A stretch of DNA of 64,000 nt from Miltoncostaea marina (GTDB taxonomy: Bacteria; Actinomycetota; Thermoleophilia; Miltoncostaeales; Miltoncostaeaceae). The notes under the pieces are model-generated. The model had not been told where the DNA came from and made no database searches. It saw only the letters and a program-made list of their open reading frames with translations. The stretch covers positions 3,132,501-3,196,500 of the forward strand of contig NZ_CP064655.1 in NCBI RefSeq assembly GCF_018141525.1. The letters run 5' to 3'. Positions 14,779 to 45,236 of the stretch are shown piece by piece (position 1 is the first letter of the stretch; each line of letters starts with the position of its first letter). Made by a program: the position numbers and the translations under genes.

Positions 14779-16058
<1,280 letters not shown>

Positions 16059-16062
<4 letters not shown>

Positions 16063-17848
16063 GGGGCCGGCGGGCCTTCCGGCGCCGGCTCGGCCGCCAC
16101 GGCGGCGGCCGGCGCGGGGTCGGCCGGGACCTCCTCGCCGGGCGGCGCGGGGGCGGGCGTGGGCTCGCCGTCGGCCGGCGGCGGGAGCGGCTCCGGCTCG
16201 GGGTCCGGCGTCGGCGGCACCGGCGCGGGGTCGGGCGTCGGCGGCTCGGGCGCGGGCGGCTCGGCTCCGGCGCCTCGGGCGCGGGCGGCTCGGGCGCGGG
16301 CTTGGGCCGCGGGGCTTCGGCCTGCGGTGGCCGCCCGGCGGCTCGGCCAGGCTCGCCGGCCGCGTCGGGCGCGAGCGCGGGGGGCGGCGGCGCGAGCAGG
16401 GCGAACGCCGTCAGCGGCGCGTCGCCGGCGGGGCGGCTCCCGGCGGGCGGCTCCTCGGCGGGCGGCTCCTCGGCCGGCGGCTCCTCGGCGGGGGCTCCTC
16501 GGCCGGCGGCTCTCGGCGGGCGGCTCTTCGACCGGGGGCTCCGCGGGCGCGGCGTCGGGCGGCGGCTGCTCAGGCCCCGGCTGGGACGGCGGCTGCTCGG
16601 CTCGGCGCGGCGGCTCCGGCTCCGGCCCGGGGGCGGGCGGCTCCGCTGGGGCTCCGGTTCGGGCGCGGGGCTCGGGCTCGGGGTCGGGCGGGTCGGGGCG
16701 GCGGGCCGGGCCGGCGCGGCGGCGGCGACTCCGCGGGACGGCGAGGGCGTCGGTGGGGCCCGTGGCCGCGGCGCCGCCACCGGCGCCGGGGGTCGCGCCG
16801 CGGCGCGGGAACGACCGGCACGGCGGCGGCGGCGGCGCGGTCGCGTCGCCCTCCTCGGGCGCCGCCGGGTCGTCGACCACCACGACGGGCACGGTGCCGG
16901 CGCCGCCGGGCGGCGGGTCGGGACCGGCGAGGCTCGGCGGCGGCGGCGCGGCGGCCCGGGGGGACGCCGGCGGCGGGCCGGGGGCGACGCCGATCAGCAG
17001 CTCGACCGGGCCGGGGGCCGGTGCGCGCGACGGCCGGCGCCTGGGCGGCGGGGTCCGCGCCGCCGCCGATCGCGAGGATGAACTGTGGCGCGGCGGCCTG
17101 GGCGGCGACCCGCTCGGGCGCGAGCGCGAACGGGCCCACGCCGTTGACCGACACCACGACCGTCGCCACGGCGCCCGCGGCCACGGCCGTGGCCGTGAGG
17201 ATGCCGCCGACCGACCCGACGGTGAGGCGGCCGGGCCCCGCCAGCCGGGCGACCGCGCCACGGCGGCGCACCGGGCGGCGGGGGCGCCCGCCTCGATCAG
17301 CGCGCGGGCCTCCTCGCGCGTGGTGCCGAGCGCCACCGCCACCCGGCGGGCCGAGAGGCCGGCGGCGTCGTGGAGCGCACGGCGCCGCGCCGGCGCAGGG
17401 TGAGCGCCACGTCCCGCCGGCCTCGCCGGCGGTCGCCGGCCGGGCGCGCAGCAGGTCGGCGCAGCGGTCGTGGGCCACACCGAGCAGCCAGAGGCGCGCC
17501 GGGGGGGCCGGCAGCGCGCCGCGCGCGAGGGCCGCCCCGGCCGCGACCAGCGTCGGCGGGCGCCCCCTCGCCGCCCTCCCGGTCGCCCACCACGGCGGCG
17601 CAGTACCGGCGCACCGCCCCGCCGTGGCGCGCCCAGAGCGCCTCCATCGCCGCCGGGTCGCCCGCGGCCGCGAGGCGGGTGAGCGCCGCGTCCCCCAGGG
17701 CCGCGCTCGGCCGGAGCCGGCCGCGGTGCGCGGCGAGTGGCTCCTCGGAGGGGGCGGGTGCGGACAGCGGGGTCTCCAGGGACGAGGGAGGGACGTGTAT
17801 ACCTCGCCCCCGCTCCGCCCCGCTGACGCGAACCTCAGGAAATCTCAC
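16059..17848 (-). pseudogene. Frameshifted membrane-anchored ECF sigma factor with Pro-rich tail
   Basis: Coding signal on the minus strand jumps frame several times. Reading 5' to 3': sigma region 2 start (LTRLAAAGDPAAMEALWARH, 17.70-17.58 kb); a second frame with VAAGAALARGALPAPPARLW (~17.55-17.42 kb); a third with region 4 (LSARRVAVALGTTREEARAL, ~17.37-17.28 kb); a frame with a membrane segment (VGGILTATAVAAGAVATVVV, ~17.2 kb); then Pro/Glu-rich repeats such as EEPPAEEPPAEEPP and PTPDPEPEPLPPP alternating between frames to a stop at 16059. The intact ancestor was probably an ECF sigma factor fused to a transmembrane helix and extracytoplasmic Pro-rich domain. Either a pseudogene or several indels in extreme-GC sequence. 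The start is uncertain. Confidence 0.65.
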
Positions 17849-17869
17849 ACCGCGCGTTGCAGAGCGGCG

Positions 17870-17889
17870 AAAACCCCCCGTCGGGGGGG
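17870..17889 (-). terminator. Intrinsic terminator of the HD-GYP gene
   Basis: Read on the minus strand: a run of seven C, GAC, six G, then TTTT. This 6-bp G/C stem with a short U-run lies 32 nt after the HD-GYP stop and is one of the few classical terminators in the window. It separates that gene from the broken sigma gene downstream. Confidence 0.65.
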
Positions 17890-17921
17890 CTACGGACGGC
17901 TGGCGGCGCCGGGTCGGAGGC

Positions 17922-18596
17922 TCAGACGGCCGCGGTCATCGCAACGTGCGGCGCGTGCCGGGGCGACGGGATGCGGGGCTCGGCGGCGCGGCGCTCCAGC
18001 GCCTGCTCCAGGGCCGCGACCACGGCCGGCGCGAACTGGTGGCCCGCCTCTCGGCGGCACTCGTCGAGGGCCTCCGCCTCGTCGAGCGGGCGGCCGTTGA
18101 ACGCGCGGTGGCGCATCGCGTCCCAGGCGTCGGCCACGGCGAGGACCTGCGCCCCCTGCGGGATCTCCTCGTCGGCGAGACGGTCGGGGTAGCCCCGACC
18201 GTCCCACCGCTCGTGGTGGTGCCGGATCCACGAGACCTGGTGCCGTCCGAGCACCGCGGCCGCCATCTGGGCACCGACGGCGGCGTGGACCTTCACGATG
18301 TCGTACTCGGCGGGCGTCAGCCGGCCGGGCGTGAGCAGCACGGCCTCGGGCACCGACACCTTGCCGACGTCGTGGACATGACCCGCCTCCCGGATGTCGT
18401 CGACGCTCTGGGGCGTCCATCCCAGCGCGGCGGCGATGTCGGCGGCCAGTTCGGCCACGCGCTCCGAGTGGCCGGCGCCGGCGGCGTCGCGGGCGTCCAT
18501 CGACCGCGCGACGCGGCGGAGGTGCATCGCCCCCTGCCAGCGGGCGAGGCCCTTGGCGGGGTCGGGCGACGAGGTCGGGGGGAACCAGTCGATCAT
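17922..18596 (-). CDS. HD-GYP domain phosphodiesterase
   Basis: Predicted cyclic-di-GMP-type phosphodiesterase, 224 aa and almost only the HD-GYP domain. Motifs: HSERVAEL at ~43, the metal pair in GHVHDVGK (His75-Asp76), HAAVG, then HHHERWDGRGYP with GYP at ~135-137, and VADAWDAM. There is no receiver, PAS or membrane domain, only ~35 N-terminal residues, so control must come from a partner or expression. No GGDEF protein is in the window. ATG at 18596; the terminator at 17870-17889 follows. Confidence 0.88.
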   Translation of the reverse strand: MIDWFPPTSSPDPAKGLARWQGAMHLRRVARSMDARDAAGAGHSERVAELAADIAAALGWTPQSVDDIREAGHVHDVGKVSVPEAVLLTPGRLTPAEYDIVKVHAAVGAQMAAAVLGRHQVSWIRHHHERWDGRGYPDRLADEEIPQGAQVLAVADAWDAMRHRAFNGRPLDEAEALDECRREAGHQFAPAVVAALEQALERRAAEPRIPSPRHAPHVAMTAAV

Positions 18597-35653: not shown

Positions 35654-36164
35654 GCAGGGCGATCAGCACGAAGGCGCTGAGCGCCATCACCGGGATCGTC
35701 ACGTAGCCGAACTCGTCGATCCAGCGCGTGGAGCACGGGACGCCGGCGCGGCACGTGGCGCTCTCCGCGTCCGGGTTGACCTCGATGTAGATGTGGTGGA
35801 TCGAGATGCCGGCGCCCACCAGCGGGAAGACCAGCGCGTAGAGCCCGGCGCGCCGGTCGCGCAGCAGGGCGCCCACCAGGAGGATGATCGCCAGCGGGTA
35901 CATGGCGATGCGCTGGTACCAGCAGAGCGGGCACGGCACGTAGTCCGCGATCTCCGAGAAGTACATGCTGCCGCCCGTCGCGACCGCCGCCACGAACCAG
36001 GCCGCCCAGGTCGCCTGCCGCGACAGCGCGTCCCACGCGCCCACCAGGCGGCCCCGCACCCCCGGGCTCACGAGCGCGGCGACGAGCCCGATCAGGACCA
36101 CCGCGCTCGCGATCTGGGCGACGATCGCGAGCGCGGCGAAGGTCGTGTCGACCGTCCCGATCAC
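35565..36164 (-). CDS. dsbB: Disulfide bond formation protein B (DsbB family)
   Basis: Membrane protein that reoxidises a DsbA partner and passes electrons to quinone. 199 aa, about five membrane helices. The quinone-side pair is CPLCWYQR and the loop pair is in TCRAGVPCSTRW, both intact. GTG 36164 overlaps the DsbA-like gene by 4 nt, a coupled oxidase pair. Its last 89 nt overlap the P-type ATPase gene on the other strand. Confidence 0.88.
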   Translation of the reverse strand: MIGTVDTTFAALAIVAQIASAVVLIGLVAALVSPGVRGRLVGAWDALSRQATWAAWFVAAVATGGSMYFSEIADYVPCPLCWYQRIAMYPLAIILLVGALLRDRRAGLYALVFPLVGAGISIHHIYIEVNPDAESATCRAGVPCSTRWIDEFGYVTIPVMALSAFVLIALLSVVALLAGRRAGSDAATPGSDPAGTARP

Positions 36165-36847
36165 CGCTCGCCGGGGCCGACGGCCGCCACGGCGTCCTGG
36201 AACTCGGACAGGTTGGCGGCGCCGGAGATCGTCCGCTCGCCGCCCGGGCCGCGGACGATGAAGGTCGGCGTCGCGTCGACCTTGTCCTTCGACGCGGCCT
36301 CGGAGCGGTCGAAGAAGCGGCTCGCCACCGCCTCGCCCGCGTAGTCGGCGCGCCACTTCTCGAGGTCGAGGCCGAGCTGGGTGACGACGTCCTCCATCAT
36401 CGCGTCGCTCAGCCAGTCCTGCGTCTCGGGGCCCTGGTTGGCGTAGAGCACCTCGACGAACGACCACATCGCGTCCTGCATGCCGGCGGCCTCCGCGCCG
36501 AGCGCGCCGCGCTCGGAGGAGGCGTTGATGAAGGCGATCGGCCGGAAGGTGAGCTTGGCGTCGCCGTCGCGCACGAACTCGTCGATGAGCTCGATGATCG
36601 TGGTCTCGCTGGCGAGCTTGCACGCCGGGCAGGAGATGTCGCCGTACTCGATGATCTCCACCGGCGCGTCGGCCTCGCCGAGCGTGTTGCCGTCCTGCGG
36701 GATGCCCTCGAGCGTGGTCTGCACCTGCTCGACGCCCTCGATGCCGGACGAGCCGTCGTCGTCCCCGCCGACGACGGTCACGGCCACGAGCACGGCCGCG
36801 ATCACGACCACCGCCGCGATCGCCCCGATGATGTAGCGCTTGTTCAC
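36161..36847 (-). CDS. DsbA-like thiol oxidase, membrane-anchored
   Basis: 228 aa: N-terminal membrane anchor (residues ~5-27), an acidic linker, then a DsbA-type thioredoxin fold with CPAC at 73-76, helical insertion and the cis-Pro segment DATPTFIV. It faces the outside and introduces disulfides into exported proteins, kept oxidised by the adjoining DsbB. The start is GTG 36847; a TATCTT box lies ~60 nt upstream. Confidence 0.88.
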   Translation of the reverse strand: MNKRYIIGAIAAVVVIAAVLVAVTVVGGDDDGSSGIEGVEQVQTTLEGIPQDGNTLGEADAPVEIIEYGDISCPACKLASETTIIELIDEFVRDGDAKLTFRPIAFINASSERGALGAEAAGMQDAMWSFVEVLYANQGPETQDWLSDAMMEDVVTQLGLDLEKWRADYAGEAVASRFFDRSEAASKDKVDATPTFIVRGPGGERTISGAANLSEFQDAVAAVGPGER

Positions 36848-36963: not shown

Positions 36964-37956
36964 ATGGAGCCCGACCGACACGGCCCGCACGTCCTCGTCG
37001 CCGACCCCTCGTACGGGCAGGGCATCGACCCGGCCGAGGCCGAGACCGCCCCGGTCGACGTCGCGGTGGAGGGCCGCCCCTGGCGGCCGGTGGTGCCCAC
37101 GCCCTGCACCCCGGGCGAGCTGGCGTTCATCGACGGCGCCCAGCAGATCGAGGCCTGGCTCACCGTGACGCCCGACGGCCGCCCCGAGGCGCCGCTGCCC
37201 GCGGCCGCGTTCGCGATCGCCGCCGGCGCCGTGCTGGCCGGGCCCTCCGGCCCCGCCCGCGTGGCCGGCCTGCGCTCGCGGCGGCTGGTGCTGACCGTCG
37301 GCGACCGGCGCCTGGAGCTGCCGCCCGGCGGCGGGTTCGCCTGGGAGGCGCGCTGCGGCGCGCCGGGCGAGGCGGCGGGCATCGCGCGGCGGGTCGGCGA
37401 GATGCGCCAGCAGCTCGAGCTGGCCGTGGCCGAGGAGATCGCGGCACCCGACCGGCTCGTGGTGCTCGACGGCCGCCTCTCGTTCATCCGCGACGCGGGC
37501 GGCCCCGTGGTGGGCGCGATCAAGAGCCACCACCGCATGTACCTGCCGCCCGAGCAGGCGCGCGTCGTGGTGGCGCTCGGCGTTGGGCAGCGCACGCCGC
37601 TGTTCGCGATCGGCGACGACCGGCTCTCCTGGTACCAGCGGCTGCCCGGCGTGGGCACCGCGGGCTGGGCCGGCATCCTGCGCGGCGAGGTCGCGCGCTC
37701 GGCCGGCGTCGCGGAGGCCGTCCGGCTGGCCGACCGCGCCGCCTGCGAGCTGCCCCGCTTCGCGGGGCGCCCCCACCGCGACGCGCGGGCGCCGCAGAAC
37801 CTGTCGCCGATCGCGGCGCTCGAGGCGATCCTGCGCCGGCGCATGGGCGAGCGGCGCCTGGCCCTGCGCGCGGTGCGCCGGGCGGCGCTGCGGGCGCGGC
37901 TCGACGACGTGCCGGCCGGGGTGGGGGTGGCCGAGGCCGACCCGCTGGCGGCATGA
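36964..37956 (+). CDS. nurA: NurA-domain 5'-3' nuclease
   Basis: NurA nucleases pair with HerA hexamers to resect DNA ends. 330 aa. The two acidic motifs of the family are visible: Asp57 in LAFIDGAQQIEAW and Asp169 in LVVLDGRLSF, the latter followed by AIKSHHRMYL. A C-terminal NLSPIAALEAILRRRMG segment resembles the end of known NurA domains. ATG 36964 has a TACAGT box 7 nt upstream. It overlaps herA by 4 nt. First gene of a tight run with herA, sbcD and sbcC. Confidence 0.85.
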   Translation: MEPDRHGPHVLVADPSYGQGIDPAEAETAPVDVAVEGRPWRPVVPTPCTPGELAFIDGAQQIEAWLTVTPDGRPEAPLPAAAFAIAAGAVLAGPSGPARVAGLRSRRLVLTVGDRRLELPPGGGFAWEARCGAPGEAAGIARRVGEMRQQLELAVAEEIAAPDRLVVLDGRLSFIRDAGGPVVGAIKSHHRMYLPPEQARVVVALGVGQRTPLFAIGDDRLSWYQRLPGVGTAGWAGILRGEVARSAGVAEAVRLADRAACELPRFAGRPHRDARAPQNLSPIAALEAILRRRMGERRLALRAVRRAALRARLDDVPAGVGVAEADPLAA

Positions 37957-39704
37957 GCGCGAACGGCCCGGGCGACGCCCGGGTGGGCGTCGTGCTGGGG
38001 CACCAGGCGGCCAGCAGCCAGACCTTCCAGGTGGGCCTCGAGCCCGGCCAGTCGCTGCAGGTCGACGACCTGGTGGCGGTCACGACGCCCGACCCCGAGG
38101 CCGACGTCGTCACCTACGGGGTGGTGGTCGAGTCGCGCGCCCTGCACGAGGGCGCCACCATGCCCTCCGACTCCATGGTCATCGCCGCCGGCGAGATGCC
38201 GGGCGAGCTCGTGCGCACCGCCGAGGTGCAGGTGATGCGCGTCGATCCCGAGCGGTGGATCGCCCCCCACCCCGGCCTGCCCGTGCGCCGCGCGCGCGGC
38301 GCCGAGCGCGAGCACGCGCTGTACGAGGACACCATGGACCGGCGCCTGGCCCTGGGCCTGGGGCGCGACGGCGAGCCGGTCAACCTCGACCTGGACTTCC
38401 TCGACGGCACGAAGGGCGGCCACGTCTCGATCTCGGGCATCAGCGGCGTGGCCACGAAGACGAGCACGGCCCTGGCGCTGATCCGCCTGCTGCTCGCCCA
38501 CCCCGACATGCGCCGCCGCGTGCGGGTGCTGCTGTTCAACGTGAAGGGCGAGGACCTGCTGTTCCTCGACCACCGCAACCGCCGCTACGCCGAGCGGGCC
38601 GCCCGCGACGGCCTCGACGCGGCGTGGGCGCGCCTCGGCCTCGCCGACCCCGGCGGCTTCCCCGACGTGGCCTTCTGGGCGCCGCCGCGCCGCGACGACC
38701 ACACGCTGCCGAGCTCCGAGTCGCGCCACGAGGGGGTGAAGGTGTTCGGCTGGACGCCGCACGCCTTCGTGCTGGAGGGGCTGCTGCGCTTCTGCTTCGC
38801 CGACGCCTCCGACATGCGCAGCCAGCTCTCGTTCGTGGAGGAGCGGGTGCGCGGCGAGCTGCTGCGGCGGGCCGTGCCGGTGGCCGGCCACCCCGGCGCG
38901 GTGGGGCTGCTGTCCGGGCCCGCCGAGGGGCCGCCGCGCCGGCGCGAGCCGCGCGCCGCCGGCGAGCTGATGGCCGGCCCGTTCCACGACCTCGACGGGC
39001 TCGTCGCCTTCCTCGTGGAGGAGCTCGACGCGGAGGAGGGCTTCGGCATGTGGACCGGGCGGGCGGCGCCGGGCACGGTGAGCGCCTTCGTGCGCCGGCT
39101 CGAGAGCGCCGCCGCGCGCCTGCGCGGGCTGGTGCGCTCGGACGCCTCGCCCATCCCGCGCGGCGACGCCGCCGCCGACGAGCCGCCCGTCGCGGTGGTG
39201 CACCTCGCCCGGCTGCACGAGTTCGCCCAGCGCTTCGTGGTCGGCACGCTGCTCGCCCAGACCTTCGCCGCCAAGGAGGCCGGCACGCGCGACCCGATCG
39301 AGTTCGTCGTGCTGGACGAGCTCAACAAGTACGCGCCGCGCGACGGCGACTCGCCGATCAAGGAGACGCTGGTCGACATCGCCCAGCGCGGGCGCTCGCT
39401 GGGCGTGATCCTGGTGGGCGCGCAGCAGCAGGCCTCGCTCGTGGCCCCGGAGATCACCCAGAACGCCGCCATCCGCATCGCGGGCCGCCTGGACGCCGCC
39501 GAGGCCGAGCGCGGCGAGTACGGCTGGCTGGGGCCGGCCCAGCGGGCCCGGGCGCGCCTGCTGATGCAGGGGCGGGTGCTCGTGAGCCAGCCGAGCGTCC
39601 CGGCGCCGATCGCGGTCGAGATCCCCTTCCCACCCTGGGCGACCACCTCGGGCGAGGCCGCGCGCGACGAGGTGGCCGAGCGCGCCCTGCGCGAGTTCGG
39701 GTGA
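37953..39704 (+). CDS. herA: HerA-like DNA translocase ATPase
   Basis: FtsK/HerA-class motor that drives NurA along DNA. 583 aa: N-terminal beta-barrel HAS domain (residues ~8-100), then the motor. The P-loop reads GISGVATKTS at ~162-171, with Thr in place of the usual second Gly. Walker B is EFVVLDELNKYA near 450, followed by DIAQRGRSLGVILVGAQQQ with sensor and arginine-finger candidates. I believe the variant P-loop recurs in bacterial HerA relatives, but this needs checking. ATGA overlap with nurA and GTGA overlap with sbcD. Confidence 0.85.
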   Translation: MSANGPGDARVGVVLGHQAASSQTFQVGLEPGQSLQVDDLVAVTTPDPEADVVTYGVVVESRALHEGATMPSDSMVIAAGEMPGELVRTAEVQVMRVDPERWIAPHPGLPVRRARGAEREHALYEDTMDRRLALGLGRDGEPVNLDLDFLDGTKGGHVSISGISGVATKTSTALALIRLLLAHPDMRRRVRVLLFNVKGEDLLFLDHRNRRYAERAARDGLDAAWARLGLADPGGFPDVAFWAPPRRDDHTLPSSESRHEGVKVFGWTPHAFVLEGLLRFCFADASDMRSQLSFVEERVRGELLRRAVPVAGHPGAVGLLSGPAEGPPRRREPRAAGELMAGPFHDLDGLVAFLVEELDAEEGFGMWTGRAAPGTVSAFVRRLESAAARLRGLVRSDASPIPRGDAAADEPPVAVVHLARLHEFAQRFVVGTLLAQTFAAKEAGTRDPIEFVVLDELNKYAPRDGDSPIKETLVDIAQRGRSLGVILVGAQQQASLVAPEITQNAAIRIAGRLDAAEAERGEYGWLGPAQRARARLLMQGRVLVSQPSVPAPIAVEIPFPPWATTSGEAARDEVAERALREFG

Positions 39705-40882
39705 GGCTCCTCCACACCGGCGACTGGCACCTCGGCAAGCGGCTCTACGGCGCCGACCGCGCCGCGGAGGCCGAGGCCGCGCTCGACGAGCTGGTCGCGC
39801 TGGCCGACGCCGAGCGCGTCGACGCGGTGCTCGTGGCCGGCGACCTGCTCGACCGGCGTCTGGTCGACTCGGCGGCGCTCGGCGCGTGCCTGCGGGCGCT
39901 CGAGCGGCTGGCCGAGGTCGCGCCGGTGGTGGCGGTGACCGGCAACCACGACGACCCCGACCTGTGGACGCATCTGGCGCCCTACCTCGCCGCCCGGCGC
40001 ATCCACGTCTCGGGCAGGGTGCGGCCGCCGGCCGAGGCGGTGGCCACGGTCGCGACCGACGCGGGGCCGCTGCACGCCGCGATGCTGCCGTGGGCCGACC
40101 CCGCGCGCATGCAGCTCGGCGGCGGCGCGGCGGCGCGCGACGCCCGGGTGCGCTGGGCCGACGGCGTGGGCGAGCTGGTGCGGCGCTACTCGGCCGAGGC
40201 CGCCGCGCGGCGGCGCGAGGCGGGCGGCGCGGCGGTGCTCGTGGGGCACCTGATGATCGAGCGGGCCCTCGCCGGCGGCGGCGAGCGCGAGCTGACGATG
40301 GGCATCTCGTACGTCGTCTCGTCGGCCGCGCTGCCGGCGGACCTCGACTACATCGCGCTCGGCCACGTGCACCGCCCCCAGCCCCTGCCCGGCGTGGCCG
40401 CGCCCGGCCGCTACTGCGGCAGCCCCATGGCGCTCGACTTCAGCGAGGACAACCACCCCAAGTCGGCCGTCATCGCCGAGGTGGCGGGCGACACCACGAC
40501 CGTCCGCGAGGTGCCGCTGACGGCGGCGGCCCCGCTCGTGCGCATCCGCGGACCGCTCGGCGGGCTGGGCGCGCTCGCGTCGGCCCACCCGGCCGGCGCT
40601 TGGTTCGCGTGCGAGGTCGAGCTCGAGGGGCCGGTCATGGACCTGGTGCGCCAGGTGCGCGACGCGGTGCCGCGCGCGCTGCGCGTGGAGGCCGTCTACC
40701 CGCAGGCCGCGGCGGCGGCCGGGGACGAGGGCGGCGGCGACGGCGGCGACGGGCCGGCGCGCTCGCTGCCCGACCTGTACGCGGAGTGGGTCGCGCGCGG
40801 GGGGCGGGAGCTGACGGCGGCGCGCGCGAGCGCCTTCGCGGCCGCGATCGCGGGGGCCGGCTCGCCCGACGACGAGGGCTGA
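39701..40882 (+). CDS. sbcD: SbcD/Mre11-type exonuclease subunit
   Basis: Mn-dependent nuclease of the SbcCD (Mre11-Rad50) complex, which cuts hairpins and blocked DNA ends. 393 aa with all phosphoesterase motifs: TGDWHLGK, VLVAGDLLDRR, VTGNHDDP, VGHLMIERA and ALGHVHRPQ. A C-terminal capping region follows, with an acidic Gly-rich insert (GDEGGGDGGDG). GTG 39701 overlaps herA; sbcC begins 4 nt after its stop. Confidence 0.93.
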   Translation: MRLLHTGDWHLGKRLYGADRAAEAEAALDELVALADAERVDAVLVAGDLLDRRLVDSAALGACLRALERLAEVAPVVAVTGNHDDPDLWTHLAPYLAARRIHVSGRVRPPAEAVATVATDAGPLHAAMLPWADPARMQLGGGAAARDARVRWADGVGELVRRYSAEAAARRREAGGAAVLVGHLMIERALAGGGERELTMGISYVVSSAALPADLDYIALGHVHRPQPLPGVAAPGRYCGSPMALDFSEDNHPKSAVIAEVAGDTTTVREVPLTAAAPLVRIRGPLGGLGALASAHPAGAWFACEVELEGPVMDLVRQVRDAVPRALRVEAVYPQAAAAAGDEGGGDGGDGPARSLPDLYAEWVARGGRELTAARASAFAAAIAGAGSPDDEG

Positions 40883-40885
40883 CGG

Positions 40886-43635
40886 GTGCGGCCGCTCGAG
40901 CTGGAGCTGACGGCGTTCCGGTCGTACGACCGGGCCACGGTGGACCTGCGCGGCCACGACCTGGTCGTGATCAGCGGCGACACCGGCGCGGGCAAGACCT
41001 CGCTGCTCGACGCGATCGCGTTCGCGCTCTACGGCCGCACGCCCGAGAAGGTCCCGGCGCGCGACCTGCTCACCCTGGGGCGCACCCACGGCGAGGTGCG
41101 GCTCACCTTCGCGGCGCGCGGCGAGGTCTGGCGCATGACGCGCCGCTACGGCCCCGAGGCGCCCGACCCGGCGCACGTGCTGGAGCGCCTCGACGGCGAC
41201 GGCGGGGCCTCGCTCGAGACGATCGGCGGCGAGGAGGCCTGCGCGGCCCGGCTCGCCGGCGTCGTGGGGATGAGCTTCGAGGCCTTCACGAGCGCCGTGC
41301 TGCTGGCCCAGGGCCGCTTCGCGGCCTTCCTCGGCGCCCGGCCGGCGGAGCGCGACGCGATCCTGCGCGAGCTGTTCGGCGTCGCCTCGCTCGACGGCGC
41401 GCGCCAGGCGGCGCAGGGGCACGCCGCCGCCGCCGAGCGCGCCGCCGAGGTGTGCGAGGCCCAGGCGGCCCACCTGCCCCCCCACGGCCCGGGCGCGCGG
41501 GCCGCGCGGGCGCGCGAGGCGCGGGAGGCGGCGGCGCGGGCCGCCGCGGCGCGGCGCCTGGTGCCGATGGCGGCGGCGGCGCGGCGCGAGGCCGAGCGCG
41601 CCGAGGCGGCGCGCGGCCGGGCCCGCTCCGCCCGGACGGCGGCGCAGGAACTGCCCGACGAGGACGCCGGCCGGCAGCTGCTGGCCCGGCTGGCCGCGGC
41701 CGACGGCGCCGTCGCCGAGGCGCGCGAGCGCCACGCGGCCGCCGAGGCGCGCCGCGAGGCGGCGGCGCGGGCTCGCGCGGAGCTGCAGGCCCGCCACGGC
41801 GGCGCCGCGGCCGAGATCGCGGCGCTGCGCGAGCGGGCGGCGGGGGCGCGCGCCTCGCGCGCGAGCTGCCGGCCCGGCGGGGCGCGCTGGAGGACGCCGG
41901 GCGCGCCCTGGCGGAGCGCCGGGCGGCGCTCGCGGCGCTGCGCGGCGCGCTGGACGCGGCGCGCGCCGAGCGGGCACGGGTCGGCGAGCGCCTGGCGGCC
42001 GTCGAGGCGTGGCGGGCCGAGGAGGCCGCGGCCGCGCGCCGGGCCGCCGCGCGCGCCGACGCCGAGGCCCGGCTCGCCTCGGCCGCCGCGGCGCACGCGG
42101 CGGCCGAGGCGGCGCGGGAGGAGGCCGAGGCCCACGCGCGCCACCTGCACCGCCAGGACCTCGCCGCCGCGCTGCGCGCCGAGCTGGCCGAGGGCGACCC
42201 GTGCCCGGTGTGCGGCGGCACGGTGGGCACCACGGCGGTGGCCACCGGCGACCTGCCGGCCGCCGACCGGTCCCTGGCCGCGGCGCGCGAGCGGGCCGCG
42301 GCGGCCGCGCGCGACCACGCCCGCGCCGAGGAGCGCCTGCGCGCGGCGGCGGCCGAGGACGAGGGCGGGCGGGAGCGGCGCGCGCAGGCCGCGGCCGCGC
42401 TCGAGCGGGCGGGCGTCACCGCCGAGGGGGCGGCCGGGGCCGCAGACGAGGCGGCCGCCCGCGCCGCGCAGCTCGACGCCGCGGTCGCCGAGGCCGAGCG
42501 CGGGCTGCGCGCGGAGGAGACCGCTGTGGCGTCGGAGGACGCCCGCCTGGGCGCGGAGCGCGCCGCCCTGGCGCGCGACGACGGGGAGCTGGCCGGCGCG
42601 CGCGCGTCGCTCGGCGCGTGGGCGGCCCACGAGGACCCCGCGGCCGCGCTCGGCGCGGCGCTCGAGGAGATCGCCGCCGCCGAGCGGGCGGCCGAGGCGG
42701 CGTCGGACGACGCGGCCCGGGCGGCGGCCGAGGCCGGCCGCGCCCGCGAGGTGGCCGACGGCCTGCGCGCGGGCCCGGTGGCCGACCTCCGCACCACGGC
42801 GGCGCGGGTGGCGGCGCGCGGGTCGCTGGAGCCGCCCGCGGCGGGCCTGGACGCCGCTGCGCTCGTCGACGCCGCGGTGCGGCTGCGCCGGGCGGCGCTG
42901 GAGGCGGCGGCGCGGCACGACGCGGCGGCGGCCCGCGCCGACGACGCCGCCGCCGCCGCGCGCGACGACCTGCTGGCCGCCGGCGCCCCGCTCGGCGTCG
43001 GCGACCCCGCGCAGGCGGAGGGCGCCGTGCGCCGCCTGACGGCCGAGCGCGACGCCGCCCGCGCGGGGCTGGCGCGCGCGGAGGAGGCCGCCGCCTCGGC
43101 GCGCCGCCTGGCCGGCGAGGCGGCCGCGGCCCGCGCCGAGGCCGACGTGCACCGGCAGGTGGCGAACGACCTGCGCGCCGACCGCTTCCCGCGCTATCTG
43201 CTCAACCGCTTCGGCGAGCGCCTGGCGGTGGGCGCCTCCGCCCGGCTGCAGGAGCTGACCGCCGGCGCGTACCGCTTCTCGGGGCGCGACAAGGACGCGC
43301 TGGCCGTCGTCGACATGCGCCGCGGCGAGCGGCCGCGCCCGGCGTCGACGCTGTCGGGCGGCGAGCGCTTCCTCGCCAGCCTCGCGCTGGCCCTCGGCCT
43401 GTCCGACATCGCCGCAGAGTCGGGCGGGCGGCTCGACTGCCTGTTCCTCGACGAGGGCTTCTCCACGCTGGACGCCGACTCGCTGGAGCAGGCGCTGTCG
43501 GGGGTGGAGCGGCTGGCCGGCGACGGCCGCCTGATCGGCGTGATCACGCACCTGCCGGGCGTGGCCGACCGGCTCGGCGCGGCGATCCACGTGCGGAAGG
43601 ACCCCGGGGGCTCCAGTCGAATCGTGGAGCCATGA
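40886..43635 (+). CDS. sbcC: SbcC/Rad50-type ATPase, with an apparent frameshift
   Basis: SMC-like ATPase partner of SbcD. Reading from GTG 40886: Walker A SGDTGAGKTS, Q-loop LLAQGRFAAFL, then Ala/Arg/Glu-rich coiled coil. Between about 41846 and 41866 the coding frame shifts by one base; the second frame then continues through the coiled coil, the zinc hook CPVCGG, signature LSGGERF, Walker B CLFLDEGFSTLD and VITHL to the stop at 43635. One missing base would restore a ~916-aa protein. All functional motifs survive on both sides, so I favour a sequence error or a very recent lesion. ATGA overlap with the next gene. Confidence 0.85.
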
Positions 43636-44047: not shown

Positions 44048-44780
44048 GACCACACACCTGCGCGACACCTGGTCGCAAAGGTCCGGGCCTCCGAGGCAGG
44101 GTTGGGGTGCGAACTCCACCCGGCCCAGAGGAGGCCCGGATGCTCACCGTAACCGAGCGGCCCAGGCGAAAGCGCCCGTCCTGGGAATCGCGCTGCGAGA
44201 TCGTCGCGAAGGTGCGCTCGATGGGATGGCGCGCCGAGGCGGCACGCAGCCAGGAGGTTCACCGGGCGACCGTCTACCGCCTGCTCGCCCGCGATGACGA
44301 GGGCGGTTGGGCCGGCCTGGTCGATCGCCGGCCGGTGCCCCGCCACCAGCCGCGCCGGCTGGCGGCCGAGCTCGCGGGTCGGATCGTGAACGCGCGCCGG
44401 GCGAGTCGGTACGGGGGCCGAGCACTCCTGCGCCTTCCTCGAGCGCGCCGTGGCCTGGTTCGCGGCCGCGCACGGGATCCGCATCGAGCGCGTCCTCACC
44501 GACAATGGGCACGCGTACCGCTCGCACCCCTGGCGCCATCTCTGCCTGGCGCTCGACATCGGGCGCCGGCGCACCCTGCCCTACACGCCCCGCACCAACG
44601 GCAAGGCCGAGGCCTTCATCGGCACCGCCCTGCGCGAGTGGGCCTACCGCTACGCCGATCCGACCAGCGCCCACCGCACCCGGGCCCTCTCAGGCTGGGT
44701 GCGGTGGTACAACCGACGTCGTCCCCAGAGCTCGCTCGGCAACCGGCCGCCGGTCAGCCGTGTCGCGCAGGTCCGTGGTC
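44048..44780 (+). mobile_element. Internally deleted IS481-family element with both inverted repeats
   Basis: 733 bp bounded by 21-bp terminal inverted repeats, left GACCACACACCTGCGCGACAC (44048-44068, shown one base over the core) and right at 44760-44780, identical at 19 of 21 positions. Between them lie the two ends of one transposase gene; the middle is missing. No exact target duplication is visible in the flanks. It cannot make its own transposase but could be moved by an intact relative. Confidence 0.8.
44140..44780 (+). pseudogene. IS481-type transposase remnant
   Basis: From ATG 44140 the N-terminal HTH is readable (KRPSWESRCEIVAKVRSMGW, VHRATVYRLLARDDEGG, LVDRRPVPRHQP) up to ~44415. 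There it jumps frame into the late integrase core: CAFLERAVAWFAAAHGIRIE, LTDNGHAYRSH with the second catalytic Asp, YTPRTNGKAEAFIGTALREW with the Glu, and WVRWYNRRRPQSSLG. About 120-150 residues holding the first catalytic Asp are gone, so it is inactive. The original stop is also lost. Confidence 0.8.
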
Positions 44781-44811
44781 GGATCACCGAGACCGCCGTC
44801 CCGCGCGCCGA

Positions 44812-44847
44812 CCGGGGACGGCGGCGGGCGGGCGGCCGCCGTCCCGG
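44812..44847 (-). terminator. GC-rich hairpin downstream of the cupin gene
   Basis: CCGGGGACGGCGGC pairs with GCCGCCGTCCCGG, 13 bp with one bulged base and a 9-nt loop, 30 nt past the cupin stop on the minus strand. There is no T-run, so a U-less terminator or insulating hairpin. Confidence 0.4.
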
Positions 44848-44876
44848 GCTCGCGGCGGGCATCGCCGGGGTGGGCC

Positions 44877-45236
44877 CTATGCCCTGGCGTACTGCGCGTA
44901 GCCGCCGAAGTCGATCGCGACGCACGGCTCGTCGCCGACAGTCCAGGCATCGTGACCGGGCTCGATCGCGGCCACGTCGCCGGGGCCGAACTCGGCCTCG
45001 GCGCCGTCCGCCATGCGCACGGCCATCCGACCCGAGACGCAGTAGAGCAGGTGGGTCGCCTCGCAGCTCCCCGTGCCCGCGATCGGCTTGACGTGCTCGG
45101 ACCAGCGCCAGCCCGGCTCGAAGACGCCCCGCAGCACGGGGTGCCCGCCGACGGTCACCACCTCCGCCCTGCCGTTGGCGGTGAACGGCCGCGTCTCTTC
45201 CGGCGCCTCGAAGTTCTTGATCTCCATGGTCGCCAT
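44877..45236 (-). CDS. Cupin-domain protein
   Basis: 119-aa single-domain cupin. Motif 1: WRWSEHVKPIAGTGSCEATH; motif 2: GDVAAIEPGHDAWTVGD. The metal-ligand set looks incomplete, with His in SEHV and in PGHDAW, so a binding rather than catalytic role is possible. ATG 45236 has a GGGGGCGAG ribosome site; an internal ATG at 45227 is an alternative. Ligand unknown. It sits alone between the IS remnant and the transporter. Confidence 0.78.
   Translation of the reverse strand: MATMEIKNFEAPEETRPFTANGRAEVVTVGGHPVLRGVFEPGWRWSEHVKPIAGTGSCEATHLLYCVSGRMAVRMADGAEAEFGPGDVAAIEPGHDAWTVGDEPCVAIDFGGYAQYARA

Follow-up and report, generated by a model that had tools for sequence, protein, structure and literature searches.

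The 64,000-nucleotide stretch of the Miltoncostaea marina genome analysed here (NZ_CP064655.1, positions 3,132,501 to 3,196,500; hereafter the window) carries four adjacent genes on one strand that encode both partners of HerA-NurA and both partners of SbcCD. This quartet corresponds, in a bacterium, to the archaeal HerA-Mre11-Rad50-NurA cluster, as the preliminary description of the window had recognized, and its conservation demonstrates that the linkage is more than chance. We consider it probable that the four genes constitute one chromosomal DNA-end-processing module in which SbcCD and HerA-NurA act jointly. In the window itself, sbcC as read is broken by a shift of the reading frame. The host genome, from an actinobacterium of the class Thermoleophilia, is a single contig of 3.37 Mb with 99.4% completeness, and the G+C content is ~76%. 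The genes and their upstream neighbour are:

nurA: 36964..37956, + strand, predicted bacterial (Deinococcus-type) NurA nuclease of 330 amino acids (phmmer, homologue profile, AlphaFold/Foldseek)
herA: 37953..39704, + strand, predicted bacterial HerA hexameric DNA translocase of 583 amino acids (phmmer to the Deinococcus radiodurans protein, Walker A/B)
sbcD: 39701..40882, + strand, Mre11-type phosphoesterase of 393 amino acids (NCBIfam sbcd_Bac, TIGR00619, Pfam Metallophos)
sbcC, 5' part: 40886..41845, + strand, head with Walker A, then the first arm of the coiled coil, read from the GTG at 40886 (TIGR00618, coding-frame profile)
sbcC, 3' part: 41845..43635, + strand, zinc hook and second arm, followed by the signature and the Walker B head, all in a different frame (TIGR00618, Pfam SbcC_Walker_B)
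DsbA-like gene: 36161-36847, − strand, divergent, upstream of nurA with 116 bp between

As described earlier, the genes overlap by 4 nt at nurA/herA (37953-37956) and herA/sbcD (39701-39704), and a 3-nt gap (40883-40885) precedes sbcC. This adjacent, co-directional arrangement corresponds to the operon layout of the archaeal type. The proposal that the quartet has its own promoter is plausible given the 116-bp gap to the divergent DsbA-like gene, but a sigma-70 promoter scan upstream of nurA, which has little power at 76% GC, returned no match.

Comparison of NurA and HerA with Pfam and NCBIfam models gave nothing useful, and matches came from solved structures instead. The window NurA matched D. 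radiodurans NurA (DrNurA, 7f6d_H) in phmmer with an E value of 6.9e-17, and a profile of 43 homologues matched 7f6d_H at 6.5e-54 and T. maritima TM1739 (1zup) at 9.7e-23. Its AlphaFold model (predicted local distance difference test score 90.3, predicted template modelling score 0.89) had 7f6d_G (DrNurA), 1zup (TM1739), 2ygk and 3taz as its best Foldseek matches, among them S. solfataricus NurA and a dAMP-bound NurA. The proposed active-site residues Asp57 and Asp169 are both invariant across the 43 homologues, and D57 aligns with the catalytic D53 of DrNurA, in a numbering that allows for an inferred 20-residue tag. A failure of the NurA hidden Markov model to match had been named beforehand as evidence against the assignment, and Pfam PF09376 indeed matched neither the window protein nor any other in the host genome. 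Because the same model misses 36 of the 43 homologues in this branch and detects just seven, its failure reflects the limited sensitivity of one model, and a match to it does not define the family. The predicted fold and the catalytic Asp, together with the sequence searches, identify the protein as a bacterial NurA of the Deinococcus type.

The window HerA aligned over its full length with D. radiodurans HerA (DrHerA, 7f6d_B; phmmer E 9.2e-109). The P-loop and Walker B motif read earlier from the letters were confirmed: Walker A is GISGVATKTS (K169/T170), Walker B contains D455/E456, and both are identical in DrHerA. This Walker A is an unusual variant common to the two proteins. Residues of DrHerA with published roles, namely K175/T176, D487/E488 and D220, could be aligned to the window HerA (PMC9960219). 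The RecA-like core, the Walker motifs and the full-length similarity point to a bacterial, Deinococcus-type HerA. SbcD is an ordinary protein in a clean reading frame and fits bacterial models best, with matches to NCBIfam sbcd_Bac (1.2e-39), TIGR00619 (above cut-off) and Pfam Metallophos, and the phosphoesterase motifs attributed to it are present.

The order of the four genes is not peculiar to this assembly. We compared 80 named loci, taken as the best HerA matches to the family profile in a sample that leans to close relatives, of which 48 extended far enough for testing (at least 1.2 kb upstream and at least 5 kb downstream of HerA). All four genes lay on one strand in 44 of these 48, including one locus (L074) with a 4-kb insertion between HerA and SbcD; three of the other four, all from Eremiobacterota, contained NurA-HerA only, and one contained HerA alone. 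Within the host order, HerA was detected in 11 of 42 genomes, and the quartet neighbours were present wherever the HerA contig extended far enough. HerA of the window family was also found in 74 of 396 sampled Actinomycetota genomes, where SbcD adjoined HerA in 21 of 25 testable new loci; the remaining four, all from one family, were without it. In the actinobacterial family f21, HerA of L154, L156, L160 and L162 had neither NurA nor SbcD within ~1.4 kb, and a fifth locus, L168, had SbcD.

Two gene orders recur. NurA-HerA-SbcD-SbcC is found in the window, in Acidimicrobiia and in Chloroflexota, whereas HerA-SbcD-SbcC-NurA is found in Micromonospora, Nonomuraea, Streptosporangium and others. 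The second order equals that of the archaeal operon, herA-mre11-rad50-nurA. The two main sides of the HerA tree match the two orders, with the exception of one long-branched locus with nurA first (L022); sequences from metagenome-assembled genomes titled Acidobacteria or Myxococcales group among Acidimicrobiia and may be mislabelled. One genome of the host order, G007, carries the second order. Its HerA shares just 47% identity with that of the window, its NurA and SbcD are equally distant, and its quartet is best read as a transfer of the whole set. Across 66 loci, pairwise distances of HerA, NurA and SbcD correlated with r 0.92-0.96 (uncorrected for species relationships). Judging from these comparisons, the quartet genes seem to diverge in step and to move as a cassette.

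The quartet had been proposed to provide a resection route independent of RecBCD/AddAB, which searches of the genome do not support. AddA is present (TIGR02785 at 3.3e-75, below the model cut-off; AddA structure match at 5.1e-45) and is adjoined by an AddB-like protein with a PDDEXK domain; no AddB model matched the latter, which is identified by its position and nuclease domain. The genome also encodes RecJ, above its model cut-off, and a UvrD-like helicase-PDDEXK fusion of ~990 amino acids (L038 3186-6155; host contig ~293-296 kb). Strong PDDEXK matches in open frames of ~1,000 amino acids occur in most genomes of the host order, and may represent a separate AdnB-like resection enzyme. At E 1e-30, none of the 31 non-carriers of the order yielded AddA, and five of its 11 HerA carriers did, with one match fragmentary and another weak. 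The co-occurrence rules out the quartet as a replacement for AddAB. Nor does the quartet depend on AddAB, since no AddA was detected in two quartet carriers of 95-96% completeness (G011 and G012).

In the module that we consider probable, SbcC-SbcD, the bacterial Rad50-Mre11, would capture and clip double-strand ends, hairpins or protein-blocked ends. A HerA hexamer would then pump the duplex into a NurA dimer, which would digest mainly the 5' strand and leave a 3' tail for RecA. The quartet would work alongside AddAB and RecJ and not instead of them. Our analysis shows the gene identities, the conserved active sites and linkage, the joint divergence and the co-presence of AddAB-type and RecJ genes; that the proteins form a complex, that it acts with this polarity and that SbcCD passes DNA on to HerA-NurA we infer from D. 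radiodurans and archaeal biochemistry. The drNurA-HerA complex digests the 5' tail while translocating (PMC9960219), S. acidocaldarius HerA directly binds the Mre11-Rad50 complex (PMC2288612), and all four genes are essential in S. islandicus (PMC4351679).

Several observations weigh against such a module. The window sbcC is not a single open frame, the quartet is patchy in the host class (16 of 399 genomes, 11 of the 16 from the host's own order), and at some loci HerA occurs by itself or is accompanied by NurA alone. Our search of the literature found no experiments on any bacterial quartet. Loss of nurA or herA barely affects the radiation resistance of D. radiodurans (PMC9960219, PMC4663267), and work on HerA-NurA of T. 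kodakarensis, published in 2026, disputes end resection and favours antiviral degradation (PMC12977600).

HerA-NurA and SbcCD could also be mere neighbours that form no joint machine, with HerA mainly regulating RecJ or aiding chromosome segregation and SbcCD cleaving hairpins as usual. The stimulation of RecJ by DrHerA, which DrNurA blocks (PMC4663267), the RecJ of the host genome and the Thermus and Deinococcus loci without linked sbcCD (PMC5448004) are consistent with this. However, the four genes stay linked over deep divergence and in two orders and are apparently transferred together, which would be difficult to account for if they shared no function, and we regard a purely neighbourly relationship as unlikely. 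A bolder reading of the joint module is that bacteria of the Actinomycetota, Chloroflexota and Deinococcota possess a widespread SbcCD + HerA-NurA resection machine, encoded by a cassette that is passed on in two orders, and running parallel to AddAB. We put this forward tentatively, as a possibility that falls short of probable; if true, bacteria have an archaeal or eukaryote-like resection route led by Mre11-Rad50.

A defence role had also been suggested earlier, and we found no positive evidence for it. In such a role the quartet would be an anti-phage module similar to Sir2-HerA, HerA-DUF4297 or the HerA/NurA-like TdpAB complex: incoming duplex DNA would be degraded by HerA-NurA, and SbcCD would supply or sense the ends. 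The patchiness of the quartet and the signs that its genes are transferred together would fit, as would the antiviral role proposed for archaeal HerA-NurA (PMC12977600). Matches to defence proteins were weak, both for the NurA model (a TdpAB chain, Foldseek E 4e-3) and for the window HerA (PADLOC mad8, 5e-12). On one linear Streptomyces megaplasmid (NZ_CP134205; L173 2531-15447), HerA-SbcD-SbcC-NurA lies beside TIGR02680, TIGR02678 and DUF2397 genes, which we take to be Wadjet-type, and an ImmA/IrrE peptidase. By contrast, the ~216 proteins encoded around 34 loci are for the most part transporters, hydrolases and other metabolic proteins, and their PADLOC matches were mostly protein kinases filed as PD-T4-6, plus one DpdF, on which grounds we rejected a defence island. 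Relatives of the window HerA appear in just six of 72,556 plasmid and two of 50,697 phage records, and the DsbA-like neighbour is retained near the quartet across three genera of the host family. Beside the window quartet we saw no effector or modification genes of the kind found in anti-phage HerA systems (Sir2-HerA, HerA-DUF4297, TdpAB, MADS). An anti-phage function appears improbable, and the mainly metabolic flanks are in keeping with a chromosomal repair locus.

Read from 40886, sbcC encodes Walker A and runs into a stop codon at 43037-43039; a different frame encodes the zinc hook (CPVCGG), the signature and Walker B. TIGR00618 positions 1-205 match the 5' part (E 3.9e-30), and positions 878-1040 match the 3' part (E 8.9e-31), which also matches Pfam SbcC_Walker_B. 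The wobble G+C near 1.0 sits at codon position 3 until ~41785 and at position 2 from ~41876, and alignment with relatives, five of which have a single open sbcC frame of 905-921 codons, places the loss of one base (modulo 3) near 41845, in a run of only G and C. All parts of the hook and ATPase ascribed to SbcC in the preliminary description are therefore present, but split over two frames. A search for a second SbcC elsewhere in the host genome found none.

The shift may have arisen recently, by a mutation that made a pseudogene, or it may be an error of sequencing, since the codon signal is still sharp past the shift and up to the end of the gene. A true shift would inactivate the SbcC half and leave NurA-HerA to work by itself, like its counterparts at the Thermus and Deinococcus loci without linked sbcCD. 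Decay of the window cluster, with sbcC a true pseudogene and the operon being lost, is conceivable though somewhat doubtful; it would concern one genome only and be compatible with any function in intact relatives. The shift is single in an otherwise complete genome, an apparently degraded transposase remnant (44107-45091) adjoins the cluster downstream, and in T. thermophilus HB27 resequencing has verified a similar loss of one base from nurA (PMC5448004). Comparison with the congener G019 revealed few other frameshift candidates in ~37 kb of aligned orthologues, in a scan that filtered out very GC-rich genes, sbcC among them. A generally frameshift-prone assembly could thereby be set aside, a result with no bearing on an error in sbcC itself. 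Set against decay are the sharp codon signal, the position of the shift among solely G and C bases, and the behaviour of sbcC in other genomes. In G019 sbcC (L014 8339-11065), the codon G+C signal leaves the frame and later returns in three stretches of the same GC-rich coiled-coil arms, which represent compensating slips or sequencing errors, and sbcC is also split in two other loci (L065, L106). These cases make errors in such GC-rich sequence believable.

A bacterial quartet as such is already known, and earlier mentions are possible: a nurA-hepA(herA)-sbcD-sbcC cluster was published in 2017 for Oceanithermus profundus of the Deinococcota (PMC5448004), with sbcD and sbcC encoded downstream of HerA (HepA) as in the window. 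That was a single context observation in one thermophile, whereas the present loci are many, include Actinomycetota and show a second order. The HerA-NurA duet of D. radiodurans (PDB 7f6d, 7wrw, 7wrx) is established (PMC9960219, PMC4663267), and both window proteins belong to the same subfamily, sharing the Walker A variant and the catalytic Asp; no linked sbcCD has been described there, in an organism without RecBCD/AddAB (PMC9960219), and the window has both linked sbcCD and AddAB-type genes. The archaeal four-gene operon and its interactions are likewise established (PMC2288612, PMC4351679), with both co-transcription and the contact of HerA with Mre11 known for S. acidocaldarius (PMC2288612). 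The operons of Sulfolobus, Pyrococcus and Thermococcus cluster the same four functions, but the window proteins are of bacterial type, with nurA first and an SbcD that fits bacterial models best; NurA-HerA identity between the domains is published as <20%. In TdpAB, Sir2-HerA and HerA-DUF4297, too, a translocase of the HerA type has a nuclease or an effector as its partner, a place taken in the window by a canonical NurA plus SbcCD.

The contribution of our analysis lies in its breadth, in the two orders, in the finding that the quartet and AddAB co-exist, and in the reservation about sbcC. Bacterial HerA-NurA has been described as limited to few bacteria, chiefly Deinococcus-Thermus, with a disputed role, and the survey suggests that the bacterial quartet is more widespread than this literature implies. 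With SbcCD-linked HerA-NurA in numerous actinobacteria, among them Micromonospora, Nonomuraea and Streptosporangium, which can be grown in culture, the question of resection versus defence, with or without Mre11-Rad50, becomes testable in cultured strains.

Directly downstream of the quartet, the apparently degraded transposase remnant has a winged helix-turn-helix (PF13551) in one frame and an integrase core (PF13683) in another. The G+C content of the window reaches its maximum, 84.5%, at 16001-18000.
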